Source: Pseudobdellovibrionaceae bacterium (GTDB taxonomy: Bacteria; Bdellovibrionota; Bdellovibrionia; Bdellovibrionales; Bdellovibrionaceae). From it: 64,000 nt of DNA. Shown here piece by piece: positions 5,188 through 19,871 of the stretch (its first letter is position 1; the number at the start of each line of letters is the position of its first letter). Below the pieces are notes generated by a model. It did not search any database. It worked only from the letters and a program-made list of their open reading frames with translations, and was not told where the DNA came from. The stretch is from positions 248,001 through 312,000 of the forward strand of contig CANFQX010000001.1 of the NCBI GenBank assembly GCA_947449255.1, written 5' to 3'. Made by a program: the position numbers and the translations under genes.

Positions 5188-6219
5188 CTAAATCTCAACC
5201 TCACTGCAAAGCCAGCCTGCAATCTCCTGGAGTCCCATGCGGTGATCAGGATATTCAGAGATGATAGATTCAAAAGTTTCCTGTATCCTTTTTGTTTTAA
5301 AATTTTGACCTCTGAGTTGACTTGTGATCGTCTCAACCAGATCTGGATAGAGGCAGTCAGTATTGATTTGAAGTTCTTTAATGACACCTTCATCAATTTT
5401 AAAATGAAAATCAAAAAAGCCCATTGTTAAATAACCATCCAATTTGAGATTAAACTCCAAGGTCTTTCCATACAGCCATTCCCAAGAGCTTAAATTTTCA
5501 AATTGTTTTCTTAATTCAGGAATTTCTTTTAGGCTGTCCATATTTAGAAACTCAATCTCGGCCCTGGCTCCATAAAACTTCTGAAATGTCCGCACCATGG
5601 CTTCAACAATCAATTCATGTCCAAGATGAGCATATTCGGGCTGTGCAACCTCATTTAAGTTAATCACTCTGGAGCGTACGGACTCTGTTCCCTTGGCCTG
5701 AAGTTTTTTTGGATTTGGAGTCAGGTATTGAACTAAACGATTCAAATCTGCATGCAATAATAAAGTCCCATGATGAAATGCACGGTCGCGACTTTCACGA
5801 TAAGCACTGCCACTGAACTTACGAGCTCCATCGGCGAAAGGGATCAATAAATCGTTCCTCCCTGACGCCTCTCCGTAAATTCCAAAACTCTTTAGCGCAT
5901 CGAGGATGATTTGAATATTATTTTCCTTACGATAGGATTCCTTCGGAGATAAAAAGGTAAAGTTGCTGTTTCCGAGGTCATGGTAAACAGCCCCACCCCC
6001 AGTTGTCCGACGCGCAAGCTGGATTTGATCTTCGTTCATTTTTGCTAAATTGCACTCTGACCAAGGATTTTGGTTGCGGCCAATGACGACAGTTTCCTGA
6101 TTCCTCCACAGAAATAAAACCTGGGAGCCAGGATCTAGATTGTGAAAGATCCACTCTTCTGTGGCCAGGTTCAGATAGGGGTTTAAACTGTCTGAGAGGT
6201 AAATTTTTAAATGAGACAT
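5188..6219 (-). CDS. lplA: Lipoate-protein ligase A
   Basis: Adenylates lipoate and transfers it to the lipoyl domains of 2-oxoacid dehydrogenases and the glycine cleavage H protein in the cytoplasm. Recognised from the N-terminal NLATEEW segment, the WRNQETVVIGRNQNPW block, and the lipoate-binding RRTTGGGAVYHDLGN motif (near residues 70-84), followed by the conserved GRNDLL and KFSGSAYR stretch. The C-terminal 90 residues match the accessory domain of full-length ligases, and the length of 343 fits. No ribosome binding site is obvious at the ATG. It stands alone between yceI and a divergent S1-domain gene. Confidence 0.93.
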   Translation of the reverse strand: MSHLKIYLSDSLNPYLNLATEEWIFHNLDPGSQVLFLWRNQETVVIGRNQNPWSECNLAKMNEDQIQLARRTTGGGAVYHDLGNSNFTFLSPKESYRKENNIQIILDALKSFGIYGEASGRNDLLIPFADGARKFSGSAYRESRDRAFHHGTLLLHADLNRLVQYLTPNPKKLQAKGTESVRSRVINLNEVAQPEYAHLGHELIVEAMVRTFQKFYGARAEIEFLNMDSLKEIPELRKQFENLSSWEWLYGKTLEFNLKLDGYLTMGFFDFHFKIDEGVIKELQINTDCLYPDLVETITSQLRGQNFKTKRIQETFESIISEYPDHRMGLQEIAGWLCSEVEI

Positions 6220-6310
6220 GGGGGCAATATATACAAGACCAAAGGCAAATTGTCACCACCAAGGCCCCAAAAGCTTGTTATTGACCCGATCTTGAACTAA
6301 AACACCTCCC

Positions 6311-7171
6311 ATGCTTCAAATTGGAAACTTTAATAAATTAAAAATTGTGAAATACACTGACTTTGGCCTCTTCTTAGATGGGGAGGATCAAGGCGAAATT
6401 CTGCTGCCAAAGCGCTATCTTGCAGAAAACGAATCCGACATCCACAGACCTGGGGATATTTTAGAAGTCTTCATCTATTTGGACTCAGAAGACAGGCTCA
6501 TTGCCACAACCGAAACTCCCCTAGCCAAAGTGGGTGAATTTGCCAATCTCCGCGTGGTTGAATTGTCGTCTGTTGGAGCTTTCTTAGACTGGGGACTTCC
6601 TAAGGATTTATTTATGCCCTTCAGCGAAAGAGCCTATGCCCTTCGCGTCGGTCAAAGTTGCTTGGTCTATATTTATATCGATAAAAGTGGCCGAATCTGT
6701 GCCTCGATGCGGCTGAATAAGTTTATCAGCAAGGAATCTGGTGACTTCAAAGACGGTCAATCTGTTGATTTGATCATCGCCAACCCTACAGAGCTTGGCT
6801 TTAACGCCATCATCAATGGCAGCCACTGGGGAGTGCTCTTTCAAAATGAAATTTTTCAAGATCTAAAAACAGGTCAAAAAATTCCAGGTTTTATCAAACT
6901 GGTTCGTCCGGATGGTAAATTGGACCTGACCTTGCACAAAACTGGGAATTCAGGATCCGATGACATTTCTGAAAAAATCATGGATCTTTTAAAGCTTGAA
7001 AATGGCTTTCTAGAAATCAATGACAAAACTTCGGCTGAAATCATTTATGACCATTTTGGCGTCAGTAAAAAGAAATACAAGATCGCCCTTGGATCCCTTT
7101 ACAAAAAACGCTTGATCACCATCGATGAAGATGGCATTCGGTGGACCAAGGCTCCTATAAAAAAGATCTAG
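6311..7171 (+). CDS. CvfB-like S1 RNA-binding protein
   Basis: A 286-residue protein of the CvfB/YitL family: tandem S1-like beta-barrel domains followed by a C-terminal winged helix. Visible are the opening barrel (IGNFNKLKIVKYTDFGLFLD), a second barrel with VGAFLDWGLPKDLFMPF near residues 90-110, a third with GFNAIINGSHWGVLF, and the C-terminal YDHFGVSKKKYKIALGSLYK winged-helix recognition region. Family members bind RNA and influence gene expression post-transcriptionally; the target here is unknown. Its 3' end overlaps the convergent DJ-1-like gene by 17 bases. Confidence 0.85.
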   Translation: MLQIGNFNKLKIVKYTDFGLFLDGEDQGEILLPKRYLAENESDIHRPGDILEVFIYLDSEDRLIATTETPLAKVGEFANLRVVELSSVGAFLDWGLPKDLFMPFSERAYALRVGQSCLVYIYIDKSGRICASMRLNKFISKESGDFKDGQSVDLIIANPTELGFNAIINGSHWGVLFQNEIFQDLKTGQKIPGFIKLVRPDGKLDLTLHKTGNSGSDDISEKIMDLLKLENGFLEINDKTSAEIIYDHFGVSKKKYKIALGSLYKKRLITIDEDGIRWTKAPIKKI

Positions 7172-7913
7172 GCTGTCCATCCAAGTCACACCAAACTTTT
7201 TCAGGCAAAAAGCGCCCCTGGGAAATCTGATCGAGCAGCTTTACAACCTGCTCCCCTAGTGCTGTTGCAGATTCAGGATTTTGTCCGGTTACAAGCCTTC
7301 CACTGACGACCACATTTTCTGAAAAATTAGGGGCGACCATAACCTGTGCGCCGCTCTCTTGAAGTCTTGTTTGAAGTAAAAAGGGAACGAGGCGTTCAAA
7401 GCCGACAGCTTTTTCTTCGTCATTTGAAAAACAAGTGAGCTTGTGCCCTTGAATCAATAGGGACCCATCAGGGAGATGAACGTTCACCAATCCCGCTACA
7501 CCGTGACAAATAGCTGCCACAACACCATCATTTTCAAAAATCTCGGCTGTTATTTTTTGCATATTTTTATTTTCTGGAAAATCAAACACAGCCCCATGGC
7601 CGCCTGCAAAATAAATCGCACAGTATTCATCGGCGCACACTTGCCAAGGCCTTAAAGTGTGCTCCAGTTTATTTAAAAACAAAGAATTGTTCATCCATGT
7701 AATATTCAAAGGGTCATCCATTTTAACACCATCTAGCGGAGCTCTGCCACCCAAGGGACTGATAAAATCCACCTCGTAGCCGGCATTGACAAATTGATCG
7801 TAAGGATGAGTGATTTCAGATAAGTACGACCCTGTGACATGGCCACTTTCTCCAAGCGTGCTCGTGCTAGTTAGGACCATTAAAATTTTTTTTCCCTGAT
7901 GCGCTAAACTCAT
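7155..7913 (-). CDS. DJ-1/PfpI family (class I amidotransferase-like) protein
   Basis: Start taken at the ATG at 7913, with GTGAGG 6 bases upstream; the longer frame to 7955 adds 14 basic residues not typical of the family. The fold is shown by the N-terminal strand (KKILMVLTST), the Glu/Gly region GYEVDFISPLGGRAPLD, the YFAGGHGAVFDFP glycine turn, and the nucleophile elbow AICHGVAGL carrying the conserved Cys. It most resembles Hsp31-like members, which have been linked to glyoxalase or protein/nucleotide repair. Substrate unknown. It converges on the CvfB-like gene. Confidence 0.85.
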   Translation of the reverse strand: MSLAHQGKKILMVLTSTSTLGESGHVTGSYLSEITHPYDQFVNAGYEVDFISPLGGRAPLDGVKMDDPLNITWMNNSLFLNKLEHTLRPWQVCADEYCAIYFAGGHGAVFDFPENKNMQKITAEIFENDGVVAAICHGVAGLVNVHLPDGSLLIQGHKLTCFSNDEEKAVGFERLVPFLLQTRLQESGAQVMVAPNFSENVVVSGRLVTGQNPESATALGEQVVKLLDQISQGRFLPEKVWCDLDGQPRSFL

Positions 7914-13257: not shown

Positions 13258-14787
13258 CTAGGAAGATTTTTTTTGAGCCTTCCTGTTTAATTTATAAATG
13301 ATCTGATCTGGACTGCCGCTCCAACAAAGGGCACCCATCTCTTCAGCCGCCCTGGGCATACCGTAAACCACACAGCTCTCCTTGGATTGCCCAATGGTGA
13401 AGGATCCTGAATCCTTCAACGTGCGCATCTCTTTGGCCCCGTCACTGCCCATCCCTGTCAACATGATAGCGACTGTGTGCCTGGCCATATTTGCTTTTTC
13501 TATAGAGCCAAACAGCACACTGACTGAAGGCATGAATCTATTGACCAATTCGCCAGTTTTAGGCTTCACAAACAACTGATCATTATTTTTTTCCACCAGC
13601 AAATGAGTTCCTCCGGCAGCAATGTAAGCCTGGCCTGGCAGCAGCGGAGTCAGCTCCCTGACCTCTTGGGTGATTCTGCCCGTTTGCTTCTGTATTCGCT
13701 CAGCATAAAGTCCTGTGAAAAGTGATGGCATGTGCTGAACAACGACGATGGGCGGACAATTCACTGGAAGCCCACCAATCAATTCACGAACAATTTCAGT
13801 CCCGCCGGTTGAAGATCCAATGGCAATCAATTTGTAATCGCTGAGTTGCATTTGCTTTTCATTGGCTGAGGAGTTCAGATTTTTTGCCTGATTGTCTATA
13901 GGTAAAAACAATTCTGATATCAGTTCACTCATCTCATCTGTCATCTGTTTAAAATTTGCAACCTGGGGTTTTTGAATGTAGGAAGAAGCCCCATTTGCCA
14001 GTGCATCAAACACAATATTACCCTCTAACATTGAACAGTCAGTCACCAGCACGCAGCGAGCGCCTGTGGTTTTTGCATAATCTTTGAAATTTGAGATTCT
14101 TAAAAAATCAGCCCCAGTTCCTTCTTCAAGATGCATGTCCAGAGTTATAAAATCAGGTTTGGTTTCTTTCATGCGATTGACTGCAGCCTCTGGACGGCTC
14201 TCAATCGCAACAATTTCGACATTGGGAATATCAGAAAATATTTTACTTAGAACTTTTTGGATGGGTTTGGAATCTTCGACAATTAAAACCTTGGTTTTCT
14301 TTTTTAAATCTAAAGAAAATTCGCTTTTTTGGATGAAGCTAATTTTATCATTTAGTTTTGAATTTCGATTTGGCATTGGGACAGGTGATTCGCCTTTTGA
14401 TAAAAAAATTTCTCCACTAACCTGGTTGATTTGCGCAATTTTTTTTGCATTGGAGGCAATCCATTTGCTCTTAGTCTTAATACCAAAACGTTGCAATTCA
14501 CTGAGGACTCGATCAACCTCAGAGGGCCCCTCTTTTATCGAAACAACGGTTGCGGCAAGGTGTTCTTTTTTGCACCCAGCTGCCTTAAATTCTTTCAAAT
14601 ACTCTTGGAGCTGCATTTCAACAGAAACCTCAGCCCCATTTTTATTTTTGGATCTGTCGATCGATGTCAACTGGCCAAACTTTAGGATTTTTGAGGTCTC
14701 ATCTTTTAAAACTAAGAAAAGAGTCTCGAATTGAAATTCAATTTGCTTGTCTTCACCCAATAAAATCGTCTGCAAATTTAAATTCAT
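13258..14787 (-). CDS. cheB: CheB chemoreceptor methylesterase with degenerate CheD-like N-domain
   Basis: Demethylates/deamidates receptor glutamyl residues to adapt the chemosensory array. Receiver domain at residues about 165-285: acidic pair ED171-172, phospho-acceptor Asp217 (ITLDMHL), Thr249 and Lys273. Methylesterase domain at about 318-505 with catalytic Ser326 (IGSSTGG), His352 (QHMPS) and Asp449 (GMGSDG), all intact. Residues 1-135 are an extra domain whose second half (EVDRVLSELQRFGIKTK and VSGEIFLSKG) resembles the end of CheD deamidases, without the GSC cysteine or catalytic His. It overlaps cheR by 4 bases (ATGA) and is the last gene of the operon. Confidence 0.93.
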   Translation of the reverse strand: MNLNLQTILLGEDKQIEFQFETLFLVLKDETSKILKFGQLTSIDRSKNKNGAEVSVEMQLQEYLKEFKAAGCKKEHLAATVVSIKEGPSEVDRVLSELQRFGIKTKSKWIASNAKKIAQINQVSGEIFLSKGESPVPMPNRNSKLNDKISFIQKSEFSLDLKKKTKVLIVEDSKPIQKVLSKIFSDIPNVEIVAIESRPEAAVNRMKETKPDFITLDMHLEEGTGADFLRISNFKDYAKTTGARCVLVTDCSMLEGNIVFDALANGASSYIQKPQVANFKQMTDEMSELISELFLPIDNQAKNLNSSANEKQMQLSDYKLIAIGSSTGGTEIVRELIGGLPVNCPPIVVVQHMPSLFTGLYAERIQKQTGRITQEVRELTPLLPGQAYIAAGGTHLLVEKNNDQLFVKPKTGELVNRFMPSVSVLFGSIEKANMARHTVAIMLTGMGSDGAKEMRTLKDSGSFTIGQSKESCVVYGMPRAAEEMGALCWSGSPDQIIYKLNRKAQKKSS

Positions 14788-15617
14788 TGCCCACCCCGAG
14801 GGCGGTATTGATAGACTGAGTTTCCGATCGCTTTAAATTCAGGCAACTCATCATGCAGAGATTCAGAAATGCCAAGGACTAGGTGTCCGTTGGGCTTTAA
14901 ATAATGACCTAGATTTTGACAGACCATCAATACTGTTGGACGGTCAAAATAGATCAATACATTTCTAAGAAAGATCACATCAAATTTAAAGGGCAAATCT
15001 AATTTGTCTTTGATTAAATTAAAAGGCTTAAATTTAATGGAACGGACTAGGGCCAACTCAAGTTCTTTCTCTATTTTGGCAGCATTTTTTGAGTTCTTTA
15101 GTAAGAAATCTTTTTGAATTGAAAACTCGGGTTCAAAGGGCAGGTTCACCGCTCTATCTAAAATAGGAGTCGAAATATCAGTCCCTAAAATTTTTATCTG
15201 ATTGCTATTTAAACCCTCTTTGAGCAACAAGAAAAGCAAACTGTAGACTTCGGCACCAGAGGAACAAGCTCCAGACCAAATACAGAATGGTTTCGATGTA
15301 TTCTGATAATGAGCAAGTTCCTTTTTTAACCACTGAAAATGGACGATCTCTCTAAACCACTCTGTTTTGTGAGTTGTTAAAAGTTCAATGCAAACTTGCA
15401 TTTCATCCCTGTCATCAAGGATTAAGTTCACATAATTATTTAAATCCTGAATTTGCAGTTCAATGAGCCTATTTTGAAGTCGGGACTGGATGAGATAATT
15501 TTTATCTGTCTTGATGCAAATCCCAGATCTTTGCTGAACAATCTCAGACAACCGCATTGAAGCGTCTTGAGTAAAGAGAGTTGTATTTCTTTGAGAAAGC
15601 TTTCTATTTGCATCCAT
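14784..15617 (-). CDS. cheR: CheR chemoreceptor methyltransferase
   Basis: Methylates glutamates on the chemoreceptor with S-adenosylmethionine, opposing CheB. The N-terminal helical domain (SEIVQQRSGICIKTDKNYL) is followed by the TTHKTEWFRE motif, the SAM-binding strand IWSGACSSGAEVYSLL, and the FLRNVLIYFDRPT block near the C-terminus, as in all CheR proteins. The length of 277 is usual. GGATAG precedes the ATG. It is separated from cheA by 11 bases and from cheB by a 4-base overlap, so expression with both is expected. Confidence 0.95.
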   Translation of the reverse strand: MDANRKLSQRNTTLFTQDASMRLSEIVQQRSGICIKTDKNYLIQSRLQNRLIELQIQDLNNYVNLILDDRDEMQVCIELLTTHKTEWFREIVHFQWLKKELAHYQNTSKPFCIWSGACSSGAEVYSLLFLLLKEGLNSNQIKILGTDISTPILDRAVNLPFEPEFSIQKDFLLKNSKNAAKIEKELELALVRSIKFKPFNLIKDKLDLPFKFDVIFLRNVLIYFDRPTVLMVCQNLGHYLKPNGHLVLGISESLHDELPEFKAIGNSVYQYRPRGGQ

Positions 15618-15628
15618 TGCTTCTATCC

Positions 15629-17419
15629 CTATCCAAAATTAGCAAACACATGAAGATTCAAGATCACACCAGGCGATCCATCCCCCAAAATTGTACCTGC
15701 GGCATATTCTGGTTTGGATTTAATTTCGTCCCCCAGAGGTTTTTGAACAACTTTTTGCATTCCAATAATGGAATCGACAAGAAAGGCTTTGTTTCCATAT
15801 TTTTTTGATATCAAGACGGGCAAATCAGATTTTTTATCTAATTTCTTATCGTTTCTATCCTTCTCTTTGAAATCAGGAATGGATCTGACTGAAGCAAGTT
15901 TTTCCCTCAAATCAATCAGCTCATAGATTTCATTTCGGATCTGAATGGCCGCATTGGAGCTGCTCACCTTTATACGATTTTCAACAGAGACCTTGCCGAT
16001 CTCGGTGATCTCGGAATTGGGAACCACAAATTTGTGAGAGCCCACTTCAACCACAGTTCCATTAAAAATGGCAAGAGAGAGCGGCACTTTCAATCTAAAT
16101 GTTGTTCCCACATCCATTTCACTTTGAATTTCGATTGTGCCCTTCAGCAGAGAAACTGATTCTTGGACCACATTCATGCCCACGCCACGCCCTGACAATT
16201 CGCTGACCGCCTCTTTCGTAGAAAAGCCATTTGAAAAAATCAAATGATAGCAATCTTGGACACTCATTTTTTCAGCTTCAGTAGATTTTATAATTCCCTT
16301 GGAAATGGCTTTCTGTTTGATCATTTCAGGATTCAAGCCCTTACCATCATCAGAAATTTCAATCCAAAGCTGCCCACCCACACGGCGCGCACTGATTCCC
16401 ACCCGCCCTTGAGTGTTTTTGCCTTTTCTTGTTCTTTCATCAGCATCTTCAATCGCATGATCGACGGCATTGCGGACCATATGAGTCAGTGAATCTGAAA
16501 GCGTATCAATTAGAGTTTTATCTATTTCAGTGTCCCCGCCCAACAAATCTATTTGAATGCTTTTGCTACACATTCTGGCAGCATCTCGGGTGGCTCTTTC
16601 GAGTTTTGTGAATGTCGGATTTAATTGCACCATCGTTAGCGACAGAGCATGACTTTGCAGTTCAAAAGTTAATTTAGTGAGCTGTGAAATGGTCTTTAGA
16701 ACCAATTCTTTATTGGCTTCGAGGTCATATTTGTACTGTTCCAGCGTCGTCTGCAATATGACTTGTTCGCCAAATGCATCTAAAAGATAATCTATTTTTG
16801 GCTTTTGAATTCTCAACACTTCTGTTTGTGTCGTTTTACTTGGGTCTTTGGATGCGACTGCCTCGGGAGGAGGCGGAGCCTGGGCACTGAGAGGTGCGTG
16901 TGCTATTTCTGGAGTTATATCTGCGGTGAGCTCAATTATGCTCTCTGCAGCAGCATTAGACTCCAGAACCTCAAATTTTTCAATCTCCGGTTCGACAATT
17001 TTTGGAGCCGCGTTTTCATTTTTATCAGAGCCATGTAAACGCCTTTCGATCTCATTCAAGATAGGCTCATGATCAAGCCTTGCAGCCTTGTCAGAAATAA
17101 GTAAGGCGATATCAGCCTTGAGTTGGTCTAGGCATTTGAATAAAAAGTCCAAGTGATATGGGGTCGCGGGAATGATGTTGTTTTTAATCGCTAGAATGAA
17201 ATCCTCAAGATGATGACCCATTTTAGCAATGTGTTCAAAACCTACGGCCTTTCCTGCGCCCTTCATATTATGACCAAGTCTTGCCAGTTCAGAAAATATT
17301 TTTTCAGAGCCAGGATTTTTTTCTAGAGCTAATGACAAGGCCTCAACACGACCTAAGCTGTCTAAGGTTTCCTGCAAAAAATCATCTTGAATTACTAACA
17401 GAAAATCATCATCACTCAT
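15629..17419 (-). CDS. cheA: CheA sensor histidine kinase
   Basis: Kinase of the chemosensory complex. HPt domain at residues about 5-110 with the phosphorylated His50 in LGHNMKGAGKAVGF; an Ala/Pro-rich linker (about 170-200); a dimerisation region; an ATPase domain with N box MVRNAVDHAIED, SDDGKGL and GRGVGMNVV; and a C-terminal CheW-like coupling domain (from about 450). No distinct P2 CheY-binding domain is apparent between HPt and linker. It sits between the MCP and cheR genes. With no cheY here, CheB is the only visible phosphorylation target. Confidence 0.95.
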   Translation of the reverse strand: MSDDDFLLVIQDDFLQETLDSLGRVEALSLALEKNPGSEKIFSELARLGHNMKGAGKAVGFEHIAKMGHHLEDFILAIKNNIIPATPYHLDFLFKCLDQLKADIALLISDKAARLDHEPILNEIERRLHGSDKNENAAPKIVEPEIEKFEVLESNAAAESIIELTADITPEIAHAPLSAQAPPPPEAVASKDPSKTTQTEVLRIQKPKIDYLLDAFGEQVILQTTLEQYKYDLEANKELVLKTISQLTKLTFELQSHALSLTMVQLNPTFTKLERATRDAARMCSKSIQIDLLGGDTEIDKTLIDTLSDSLTHMVRNAVDHAIEDADERTRKGKNTQGRVGISARRVGGQLWIEISDDGKGLNPEMIKQKAISKGIIKSTEAEKMSVQDCYHLIFSNGFSTKEAVSELSGRGVGMNVVQESVSLLKGTIEIQSEMDVGTTFRLKVPLSLAIFNGTVVEVGSHKFVVPNSEITEIGKVSVENRIKVSSSNAAIQIRNEIYELIDLREKLASVRSIPDFKEKDRNDKKLDKKSDLPVLISKKYGNKAFLVDSIIGMQKVVQKPLGDEIKSKPEYAAGTILGDGSPGVILNLHVFANFG

Positions 17420-17507: not shown

Positions 17508-19298
17508 CTAAATCTTTTCCCAAGGGTCTTCGTGATTTTTGGAAGCTATCCCCGTATTGACAGATCTGGCCGGTTTATTTTTCGCCACTGGCCGTTTAAA
17601 GGGCACAACTTTATCAGAGAACTTAACCATTGGAGCATGATTGGACGTCGGTGCATGACGTGGTTTTCTGCTATGATTGGCTTGGGGTTGATATTCGTCC
17701 CTTGTGCGACCATAAATCAAACCTTCTAAATCACCAACCACATCAACAAGCATATCACCTTGTGAAGTTAGAGAAATGCTGTTTGACGAAATTTCTTCAG
17801 CAGAAGAAGCATTTTCTTGCGTCGCCTGACTGATCAACTGAATGCTTTGATTGATCTGTTGAATTCCTGAATTTTGCTCTTCGGAAGCTCGCAATATATG
17901 CTCTGCACCCGCCAAAATCTCTTTAGAAACCGTTTCAATATCTGACAACTGTTCAGCCGTTTTTTTACAAAGCGTCACACCTAGCATCACTTTTGAGCGA
18001 TTGAATTGAACAACCTCTTGGGCTTCTTTGATACTGTTCTTTACAATTTGACCGATTTCAGAGGCACTCTTGCCGCTCATTTGCGCCAAGTTCCCAACTT
18101 CTTGAGCAACGACGGCAAACCCACGACCGTGCTCGCCCGCTCTTTCAGCTTCGACGGAGGCATTGAATGACAGCAGTCTTGTTTGGAAAACAATTTCATC
18201 AATCAATTCAGTTTTTTCACCGATTTGCTCGATCAGTTTTGCAAGCACTTCAACTCTTGTATTTGCATCTGCGATTTGATTCATAGAATCTTGCAACTCC
18301 GCCATGGAAGCCGAACTTGAAGTCACTAGATTAGAAACTTTATGAGACATATCCACGGATTGTTGTGAACTCTTTAAAGCTGAAGTCAAAAGACCAGAGA
18401 TTTCCTCAAGGCTGGATGAGGTTTCCTCAACGGAGCTGGCCTGTTCCTGACTTGAACTTGCCAGTTGTTGACTTGATGCGGACATGCTTTCTGATGTTTG
18501 GCGAACTTCTAGACTGACTTCACTGACATGCTTAGCCAATCCACCCAAAGAATCTAAAGGTATACGAATCAAAAAGAAAGCAATGCCTAAAGAAAAGAGA
18601 CTGGCACCAATACCCCACAGAATTATCTCTTGAGTCGAGGCCTTTGACGCCGCTTGAACCGTGTCCAGACTTGAAATGATGGTGAAGGTCCCTTTGAGAT
18701 CTCCATCTTTCATATTCTCCATTTTATAGCCCAAGATGTCATGCTCATTGCCCCATGGACTTGTTGAAGGAGCTCCATGACATAACAAGCAGTTTCTAGA
18801 TTCAGCAATCCGCACAGGAACAGAGACTGAAATAGATCGGCCATCAGAGCTTTTTTGAACAACCTCTTTTAAAGTGACGTCGGATCTGAAGCTAGCAATA
18901 ACTTCTAGCTCAGTCATTGTTGCCTGATTGTCTTTATTACGAGCATTGTCTGAAGCCACTCGAAATTGATAGTGCTCTTTTTCAGCGCCTTCACGGCCAA
19001 TTTGAAATCCAGCAAAAATCGGCACACTTCTTAAAATTTTCATTTTTTGTTCTTCAGGAACCATTCCATAGCGAAACTGTTTCACAGTGTCCGAAATAAC
19101 CCCATTGAGTGTGTTCATTTGCGCGACGTAATGGGCACTGCGCTCAACCCTTGACAAGATGGCGCGAGATTTTTCAACCAGGCCTTGCTCTAAGTCATTT
19201 GTCAGTCGCTTGTTTGAAAAAAAGATGGCGACGGCGGTACAAAGTGTACACATACCAGCCATCGTTAATAAGATAATATTTCTAAAACTCAGTTTCAT
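17508..19298 (-). CDS. Methyl-accepting chemotaxis protein with haem-binding DUF3365-like sensor
   Basis: Chemoreceptor with two membrane segments (about residues 6-27 and 225-246) enclosing a periplasmic sensor of about 200 residues. The sensor carries CLLCHGAPS (Cys170, Cys173, His174) followed by a Trp/Gly segment, the pattern of DUF3365/Tll0287-type c-haem domains, so the input is probably redox, oxygen or a haem ligand. The cytoplasmic part has the signalling hairpin ([21 protein letters not shown]) near residue 380. A Pro/Lys-rich tail ends in DPWEKI, which resembles a CheR-tethering pentapeptide but lacks the final aromatic. GAGGAG precedes the ATG. It is co-oriented with cheW and cheA. 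Confidence 0.9.
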
Positions 19299-19319: not shown

Positions 19320-19871
19320 TTAAGCTGGTATTTGTGTATTTAAAAAAATGAATTCGTTAATTCTTAAAGCCTTATTGAGATTCAAGATCGGAGCTAATTG
19401 GGCCCCATCTTTTTTAATGATACCGTCAAAGACATCTTTGTTATTCAGATTGTCGACAGCGTGATCAATATTCTCATCAGCTATAGCTAACACTTCTACA
19501 ACATCGTCAACGATGGCCCCAAACATGCGACCTGAGACCTCAGTGATAATCACACAAGGGCGTCTTGATTTATCAACTTCGCCCATGTTGCCAAGAAAAT
19601 TTAGACTTTTTTGCAAGTAAACTGCAGAGATTATTTTCCCTCGCAAATTGATAAGTCCCGCAAAGTAGTTTGGCATATTTGGCAGTGTTGATATTTGGCC
19701 TAAGCCAAGAACTTCCCGAACCGTTGTTAGTGGCAATGCAAAGGTGTTGGGACCCACCCGTAAAAACATGAACTTTTTTGCTCTGCTTTTTTTTAACTTT
19801 TGAATATTTGTATCCGCTCCAAGATCATGACTGTCAGAATGTGAACTGGCGCTGGAAGATTCGGTCGACAT
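19320..19871 (-). CDS. cheW: CheW coupling protein
   Basis: Links the receptor to CheA. The CheW SH3-like fold is shown by FMFLRVGPNTFALPLTTVREVLG, the LPNMPNYFAGLINLRGKIISAVYL core and the VVDDVVEVLAI strand. About 30 Ser/Asp-rich residues precede the domain. It is the first gene of the chemosensory operon; AAAGGAAA lies 8 bases before the ATG, and a small inverted repeat (AGAGA at 19890-19894, TCTCT at 19902-19906) lies just upstream in the divergent promoter region. Confidence 0.95.
   Translation of the reverse strand: MSTESSSASSHSDSHDLGADTNIQKLKKSRAKKFMFLRVGPNTFALPLTTVREVLGLGQISTLPNMPNYFAGLINLRGKIISAVYLQKSLNFLGNMGEVDKSRRPCVIITEVSGRMFGAIVDDVVEVLAIADENIDHAVDNLNNKDVFDGIIKKDGAQLAPILNLNKALRINEFIFLNTQIPA

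Follow-up and report, generated by a model that had tools for sequence, protein, structure and literature searches.

A chemoreceptor gene lies among chemotaxis genes in the 64-kb stretch of Pseudobdellovibrionaceae DNA analysed here (the window), and the outer part of the protein bears a CxxCH motif. The locus thus raises the question of whether this receptor carries a haem outside the cytoplasm and what such a haem would sense. An earlier reading of the DNA (the original prediction) had proposed a chemoreceptor with a periplasmic haem-c domain of the DUF3365/Tll0287 pattern, and Pfam, the predicted fold and the relatives all support this proposal. The frame at 17508-19298 is a real one of 596 amino acids with an ATG start; it lies on the minus strand, which the original prediction left unstated, and a GAGGAG read by eye stands immediately 5' of the start codon. 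We give a probability of about 0.5 to the reading that the protein is a periplasmic receptor for NO or redox state, equipped with its own kinase and belonging to the sCache_heme family. The features of the locus are as follows.

19320..19871, minus strand: CheW (PF01584).
17508..19298, minus strand: putative haem-c Cache chemoreceptor (MCP), 596 aa (ORF, Pfam, predicted fold).
19221..19277, minus strand: TM1, residues ~8-26 (hydropathy maximum).
18666..19217, minus strand: periplasmic haem-Cache (Tll0287-like) domain, residues 28-211 (PF11845, AlphaFold model, match to 5b82).
19116..19118, minus strand: Met61, candidate distal haem ligand in the turn that follows helix 1 (alignment of 92 rows, model).
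18777..18791, minus strand: CLLCH haem-attachment motif, residues 170-174, with His174 as the expected proximal ligand (CxxCH kept in 92/92 rows).
18711..18713, minus strand: Met196 (Trp in 69/76 rows without Met61).
18693..18695, minus strand: Lys202 (His in 68/76 rows without Met61).
18567..18626, minus strand: TM2, residues ~225-244, unbroken into the cytoplasmic helix, without HAMP match (hydropathy, model).
17823..18320, minus strand: MCP signalling domain, residues 327-492, including the hairpin-tip sequence (Pfam).
15629..17419, minus strand: CheA with Hpt, dimerisation, ATPase and CheW-like domains (Pfam).
14784..15617, minus strand: CheR methyltransferase (Pfam).
13258..14787, minus strand: CheB (receiver and methylesterase) with a 160-aa N-terminal extension (Pfam).

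The receptor consists of TM1, the periplasmic Tll0287-like domain, TM2 and the MCP signalling domain, in this order. PF11845 matches residues 37-208 (E 1.2e-19, 71.6 bits against a cut-off of 24.1; 75.7 bits when the genome was searched) and MCPsignal (PF00015) matches residues 327-492 (E 3.1e-33, 115.5 bits), while Pfam gives no HAMP match in the receptor. The haem motif named in the original prediction was located at residues 170-184, and it stands above chance, with a CxxCH in 0.08% of 20,000 shuffles of the receptor protein. Only two ORFs of at least 110 aa in the window contain a CxxCH, namely 17508-19298 and 964-2175. The Trp/Gly block said to follow the motif is present; 42 of 53 relatives share Trp182, but the residue after it is variable (Lys 26, Gly 25, His 1 and Asn 1; n=53).

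The sensor domain was modelled by AlphaFold from a 49-row alignment, with a pLDDT of 94.3 and a pTM of 0.88. Tll0287 (5b82) is the sole PDB match of this model at E ≤0.001 (Foldseek E 4.5e-7), and VIA-align superimposes the two with Z 14.1 over 151 residues (rmsd 3.0), with extracellular WalK/YycG domains ranking next at Z 8.1. By sequence, the window domain alone reaches Tll0287 at E 0.25, a profile of 11 receptors places it first among PDB sequences (E 4.2e-5), and the profile with three stand-alone relatives added reaches it at E 3.2e-32. Fold alignment A2 comprised the window receptor and 48 of 53 loci, and A4 the window receptor and 35 of 53; L187 and L166, whose domain is incomplete, and L144, L164 and L179 were left out of the fold alignment. 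By this prediction, the sensor region is a single Cache fold of the Tll0287 type. The full-length model reached a pLDDT of 81.9 and a pTM of 0.45, a low value as regards how its parts are placed relative to one another. In this model the CxxCH falls on a short helix (171-174) flanked by strands 155-163 and 201-210, and the N-terminal part has a helix at 5-60, a turn at 61-62 and a helix at 63-74. The model also has one helix at 212-386 that runs from TM2 straight to the hairpin tip. HAMP was found in 4 of the 36 full-length members scanned and was absent in 32, the window receptor included. The hairpin tip (~residues 364-390) occurs in two types among the haem receptors compared, FQTNLLALNA and FQTKLLSFNAS; the tip of the window receptor is of the latter type, with E before RAGE where the compared relatives show A. 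This tip variant may fit the operon's own CheA.

In all, 92 sensor rows were aligned and used for a tree; L187 and L166 were dropped for their incomplete domain, a sensor was not added when its core duplicated one in the set, and the G071 copy is represented by L148, which lies on a contig of the same length (5,261 bases). The CxxCH is present in 92/92 rows, and the outside part of the receptor is very likely to carry covalently attached haem. None of the 92 rows, window receptor included, has a domain Cys beyond the CxxCH. The haem of Tll0287 is reported to be ligated by Cys and His (PMC12889525). Outside the haem motif its aligned stretch has one Cys, in the segment AVCAPVG, and this is therefore probably the axial ligand. 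The corresponding region of the window receptor is two residues shorter and Cys-free, and when stand-alone relatives are aligned with the receptors the AVCAPVG Cys falls in a two-residue gap adjoining Pro93, a Pro in 92/92 rows.

Three further positions distinguish the pocket of the window receptor, and together with the missing second Cys they are features absent from the original prediction. Position 61 is Gln in 70 of the 92 rows, Met in 16, Ser in 4 and Leu in 2. The 16 Met61 rows have Met (11), Gln (3), Leu (1) or Phe (1) at position 196 and Arg (13) or Lys (3) at position 202. Among the 76 sensors lacking Met61, Trp predominates at 196 (69, against Tyr 4, Met 2 and Phe 1) and His at 202 (68, against Arg 4 and Val 4). 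The smaller set of 54 rows (window and 53 loci) has Arg or Lys202 in all 16 sensors with Met61, His (28), Val (4), Arg (2) or a gap (1) in the 35 with Gln61, and Arg202 in the two with Leu61; one row has a gap at 61. The Leu61 sensors of L159 and L165 are near-alike, both with Met196 and Arg202, and are labelled Silvanigrella and betaproteobacterium, respectively; the contig of the latter may be mis-binned. His56 was also considered as a distal ligand and set aside, being found in 1 of the 16 Met61 rows, that of the window receptor.

PF11845 occurs in 34 of 59 relative genomes, including 22 of 23 of the same genus; of 289 genomes sampled from the phylum, 120 have it. Among the matches listed, same-genus sensors share 38-47% identity with the window sensor, and the sensor of G071, from another genus of the same family, shares 56%. 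Scanning named genomes yielded 53 loci, of which the nearest 16 (L142-L157) are 48-59% identical to the window sensor; 14 of these 16 are labelled as Bdellovibrionota-type bacteria, with L150 and L157 as exceptions. L163 is the haem-receptor locus of Bdellovibrio bacteriovorus kdesi (NZ_CP102930.1), whose sensor has Gln61, Trp196 and His202. On the tree, the window receptor falls into a 10-row Met61 group (support 99/93) nested in a 19-row group (100/99), which unites all 16 Met61 sensors with two Leu61 sensors and one Gln61 sensor. An 18-row fork of Met61 and Leu61 sensors has support 94/93, below the star limit; the label test on the tree contrasted Met61 with Leu61 rows only, and the grouping was taken from the drawn tree. 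Covariation of positions 61, 196 and 202 was rejected as a proof of contact, because one origin of Met61 suffices on this tree and the differences at the three positions may therefore be one evolutionary step.

The genes around the receptor follow the order CheW-MCP-CheA-CheR-CheB on one strand. They likely form one operon, since they are separated by short gaps of 21, 88 and 11 bases and the last two overlap by 4 bases; none of the five is a stand-alone CheY. We searched 110 loci with the che proteins of the window; these loci are redundant, have unequal flanks and in some cases end at a contig end (L100 and L158 are the same place, as are L141 and L187). A CheA-like gene near the haem receptor was recognised in five of them (L087, L100, L155, L156 and L158) and in none of the other 105 redundant loci; CheW without CheA was found in L141 and L187, and a CheB in L101. 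Most haem receptors compared stand apart from che genes within the stretches examined, and the window receptor is the second gene of five.

Among 59 other genomes, the best match to the operon CheA is in G054, which belongs to a different family of the order (59% over 502 residues); the same-genus genomes have only distant CheA proteins (≤35% over long alignments). In G054 the 20 kb examined contain CheA, CheR and CheB as a group, and neither a receptor nor a CheW was recognised there. The operons of the next CheA matches, G042 (37%) and G050 (39%), contain a receptor without CxxCH, and in G024 (CheA 40%) no receptor was recognised near CheA. These comparisons suggest that operons of this type can carry several different receptors, the haem receptor being one of them. 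At the other end of the operon, residues 1-160 of CheB have no Pfam match. A CheD is fused at this N-terminal position in the related operons L232 and L233 and in the own-genome che locus L237, and a profile comparison of the extension with CheD gave a probability of 52% (P 1.5e-4); the LGSC motif of the three compared CheD sequences is absent from the extension, which may be a degenerate CheD.

The genome (34 contigs, completeness 99.97) contains one PF11845 match, five MCP-domain matches, six flagellin matches and eight CheW-domain matches at four places, the window and contigs C6, C7 and C11. On C11, locus L235 has a CheR-CheB fusion (5568-7502, a 645-aa frame) beside MCP, CheW and CheA. 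The genome carries system-II cytochrome c maturation genes: contigs C6 and C10 gave matches to ResB and to cytochrome c assembly; system-I maturation was considered in their place and rejected, as the CcmF profile stayed below the cut-off.

Starting from the domains, the CxxCH, the predicted fold, the lack of a second Cys and of a HAMP match, the gene order and the maturation genes, we propose how haem, ligand, response direction and output might be connected. The receptor would be a transmembrane dimer whose periplasmic haem c is bound by covalent links to Cys170 and Cys173; the motif suggests His174 as the proximal ligand. The sixth haem position, without a Cys, would be open or weakly held by water or Met61, so that it could be occupied or freed by a redox change or by a small ligand, for which NO is the likeliest candidate. 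The N-terminal helix would then move and pass the signal through TM1 and TM2 and the single cytoplasmic helix, which has no HAMP, to the hairpin tip. There the activity of the operon CheA would be set through CheW, with CheR and CheB adapting the receptor. The output would be movement towards or away from a zone of NO or of a certain redox state, by a route to the motor that we assume, since the operon is without a stand-alone CheY. NO is preferred as the ligand because of the biochemistry of family members (PMC12889525; PMC8396549), an analogy with one HAMP-containing Pseudomonas protein and Geobacter domains, none of them close in sequence. The literature passages covered contain no tests of residues 61, 196 and 202.

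Four other readings were weighed against this NO/redox receptor. The haem could function as a redox switch proper, in which Met61 coordinates the distal side of the reduced haem (His174/Met61) and is released on oxidation, the ligand change itself being the signal. Met61 lies in the turn that follows the first helix, is common to 16 rows that all lie inside one 19-row group, and co-occurs with the loss of Trp196 and His202; a switch of this kind has been proposed for GSU0935/GSU0582 with Met60 (PMC8396549). However, a single origin of Met61 would suffice, its association with 196 and 202 carries no statistical test and may be one event, and the two Leu61 sensors likewise have Met196 and Arg202. 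In addition, Foldseek matches the GSU0935 domain weakly (3b42, E 0.034), and Met61 and Met60 lie at different distances from the CxxCH His, 113 residues here against 84 in GSU0935. We regard the pure redox switch as a minority possibility. An extended form of it is more tentative: a mainly Bdellovibrionota group would have rebuilt the distal side (Gln61 to Met, Trp196 lost, His202 to Arg or Lys) and turned an open gas site into a His/Met redox switch, independently of Geobacter, and the window receptor would also have joined a dedicated CheA operon whose G042 and G050 counterparts carry a receptor without the haem motif. A receptor for oxygen, as the original prediction implied by proposing taxis assays across oxygen gradients, seems improbable. 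Its wider idea of a redox- or gas-sensing array agrees with the family literature, and both redox potential and oxygen are given as stimuli of DcrA (PMC8396549), but oxygen gradients would not be the best test, since the studied signal-fused sCache_heme protein is reported to bind NO, to form no stable oxygen complex and to autoxidise fast (PMC12889525).

The site might also have lost its haem. Asn169 and Glu185 replace residues that are Gly in 90/92 rows each, so that the haem site could be partly degenerate, and Val160 is another change at a mostly conserved position. Against an ordinary ligand-binding Cache domain without haem function stand the CxxCH, Pro93, Trp182, Asp187, Gly190 and Met193, all retained, and the predicted Tll0287 fold, and we consider this outcome very improbable. 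Alternatively, the operon may control a process other than flagellar movement. The absence of a CheY-like gene among its five genes and a CheA whose closest match is in another family rather than in the genus argue for such a role; CheR and CheB are present, though, and the flagellins and the three other che places of the genome could supply a CheY, which makes a non-flagellar output a minority possibility. The NO/redox receptor with its own kinase remains the preferred reading.

The second haem protein that the original prediction had noted at 964-2175 is a plus-strand ORF of 403 aa, with a signal-peptide-like start followed by CITCHYNGLGGG with its CITCH. The motif is thus present, but the shared CxxCH is all that ties this ORF to the receptor gene ~15 kb away, and a link to the che operon was rejected, as nothing connecting the two was found beyond it. 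The ORF has no Pfam or NCBIfam match; its long remainder gives, on reading, the impression of an outer-membrane barrel, and a barrel with one N-terminal haem-c site is possible.

The family offers two natural residue sets on one scaffold that is mostly without HAMP, mainly within one phylum: Gln61/Trp196/His202 versus Met61/non-Trp196/Arg-Lys202. Their comparison bears on gas binding versus redox switching and on the need for HAMP. The locus further suggests periplasmic sensing of NO or redox state in bacteria of the Bdellovibrio type. Earlier publications already describe the family, its gas binding and its chemoreceptor members (PMC12889525; PMC8396549; PMC3460858; PMC3831638; PMC8694187). 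A literature search over titles, abstract starts and selected passages found neither the Met61/Arg-Lys202 group nor a che operon containing a HAMP-less haem-Cache receptor, and the main text of PMC12889525 contains no word beginning with Bdellovibrio.

Among the known systems, Tll0287 of Thermosynechococcus elongatus (PDB 5B82) is alike in predicted fold and haem motif; it is a stand-alone protein with Cys/His haem, whereas the window receptor has no second Cys and so lacks the axial Cys that marks Cluster 1. The likeness to Cluster 2 of sCache_heme, as this family is named in a 2026 preprint (PMC12889525), lies in PF11845, the CxxCH, the Cache fold and the fusion to a signalling output. The signal-fused member studied there, from Pseudomonas azotoformans, is reported to bind NO and release it slowly; it is without an axial Cys, as is the window receptor, but has a HAMP where the window receptor shows none and a predicted helix that continues unbroken from 212 to 386. 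GSU0582 (PDB 3B47) and GSU0935 (PDB 3B42) of Geobacter sulfurreducens are likewise MCPs with a periplasmic single-haem-c Cache/PAS-like domain. NO is reported to bind to both whether they are oxidised or reduced, and CO to the reduced form; in GSU0935 an axial Met60 is reported to bind the reduced haem, to leave on oxidation and to be displaced by NO or CO (PMC8396549). The two Geobacter receptors carry HAMP, in contrast to the window receptor, in which none was found, and the distal ligand of GSU0935 is a Met. An equivalence of Met61 with Met60 is not claimed here, as sequence and profile searches from the window domain and receptor profiles missed 3b42 and the Foldseek match is weak; 3b42 is also not among the 50 VIA-align entries listed. 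DcrA of Desulfovibrio vulgaris is likewise described as a chemoreceptor with a periplasmic c-type haem, responding to redox potential and oxygen, and it has an additional cytoplasmic PAS domain (PMC8396549). In conclusion, the haem-c receptor as a kind is already known from these systems, and the window protein belongs to a little-noticed branch of it, with a predicted altered haem pocket and a small operon of its own.
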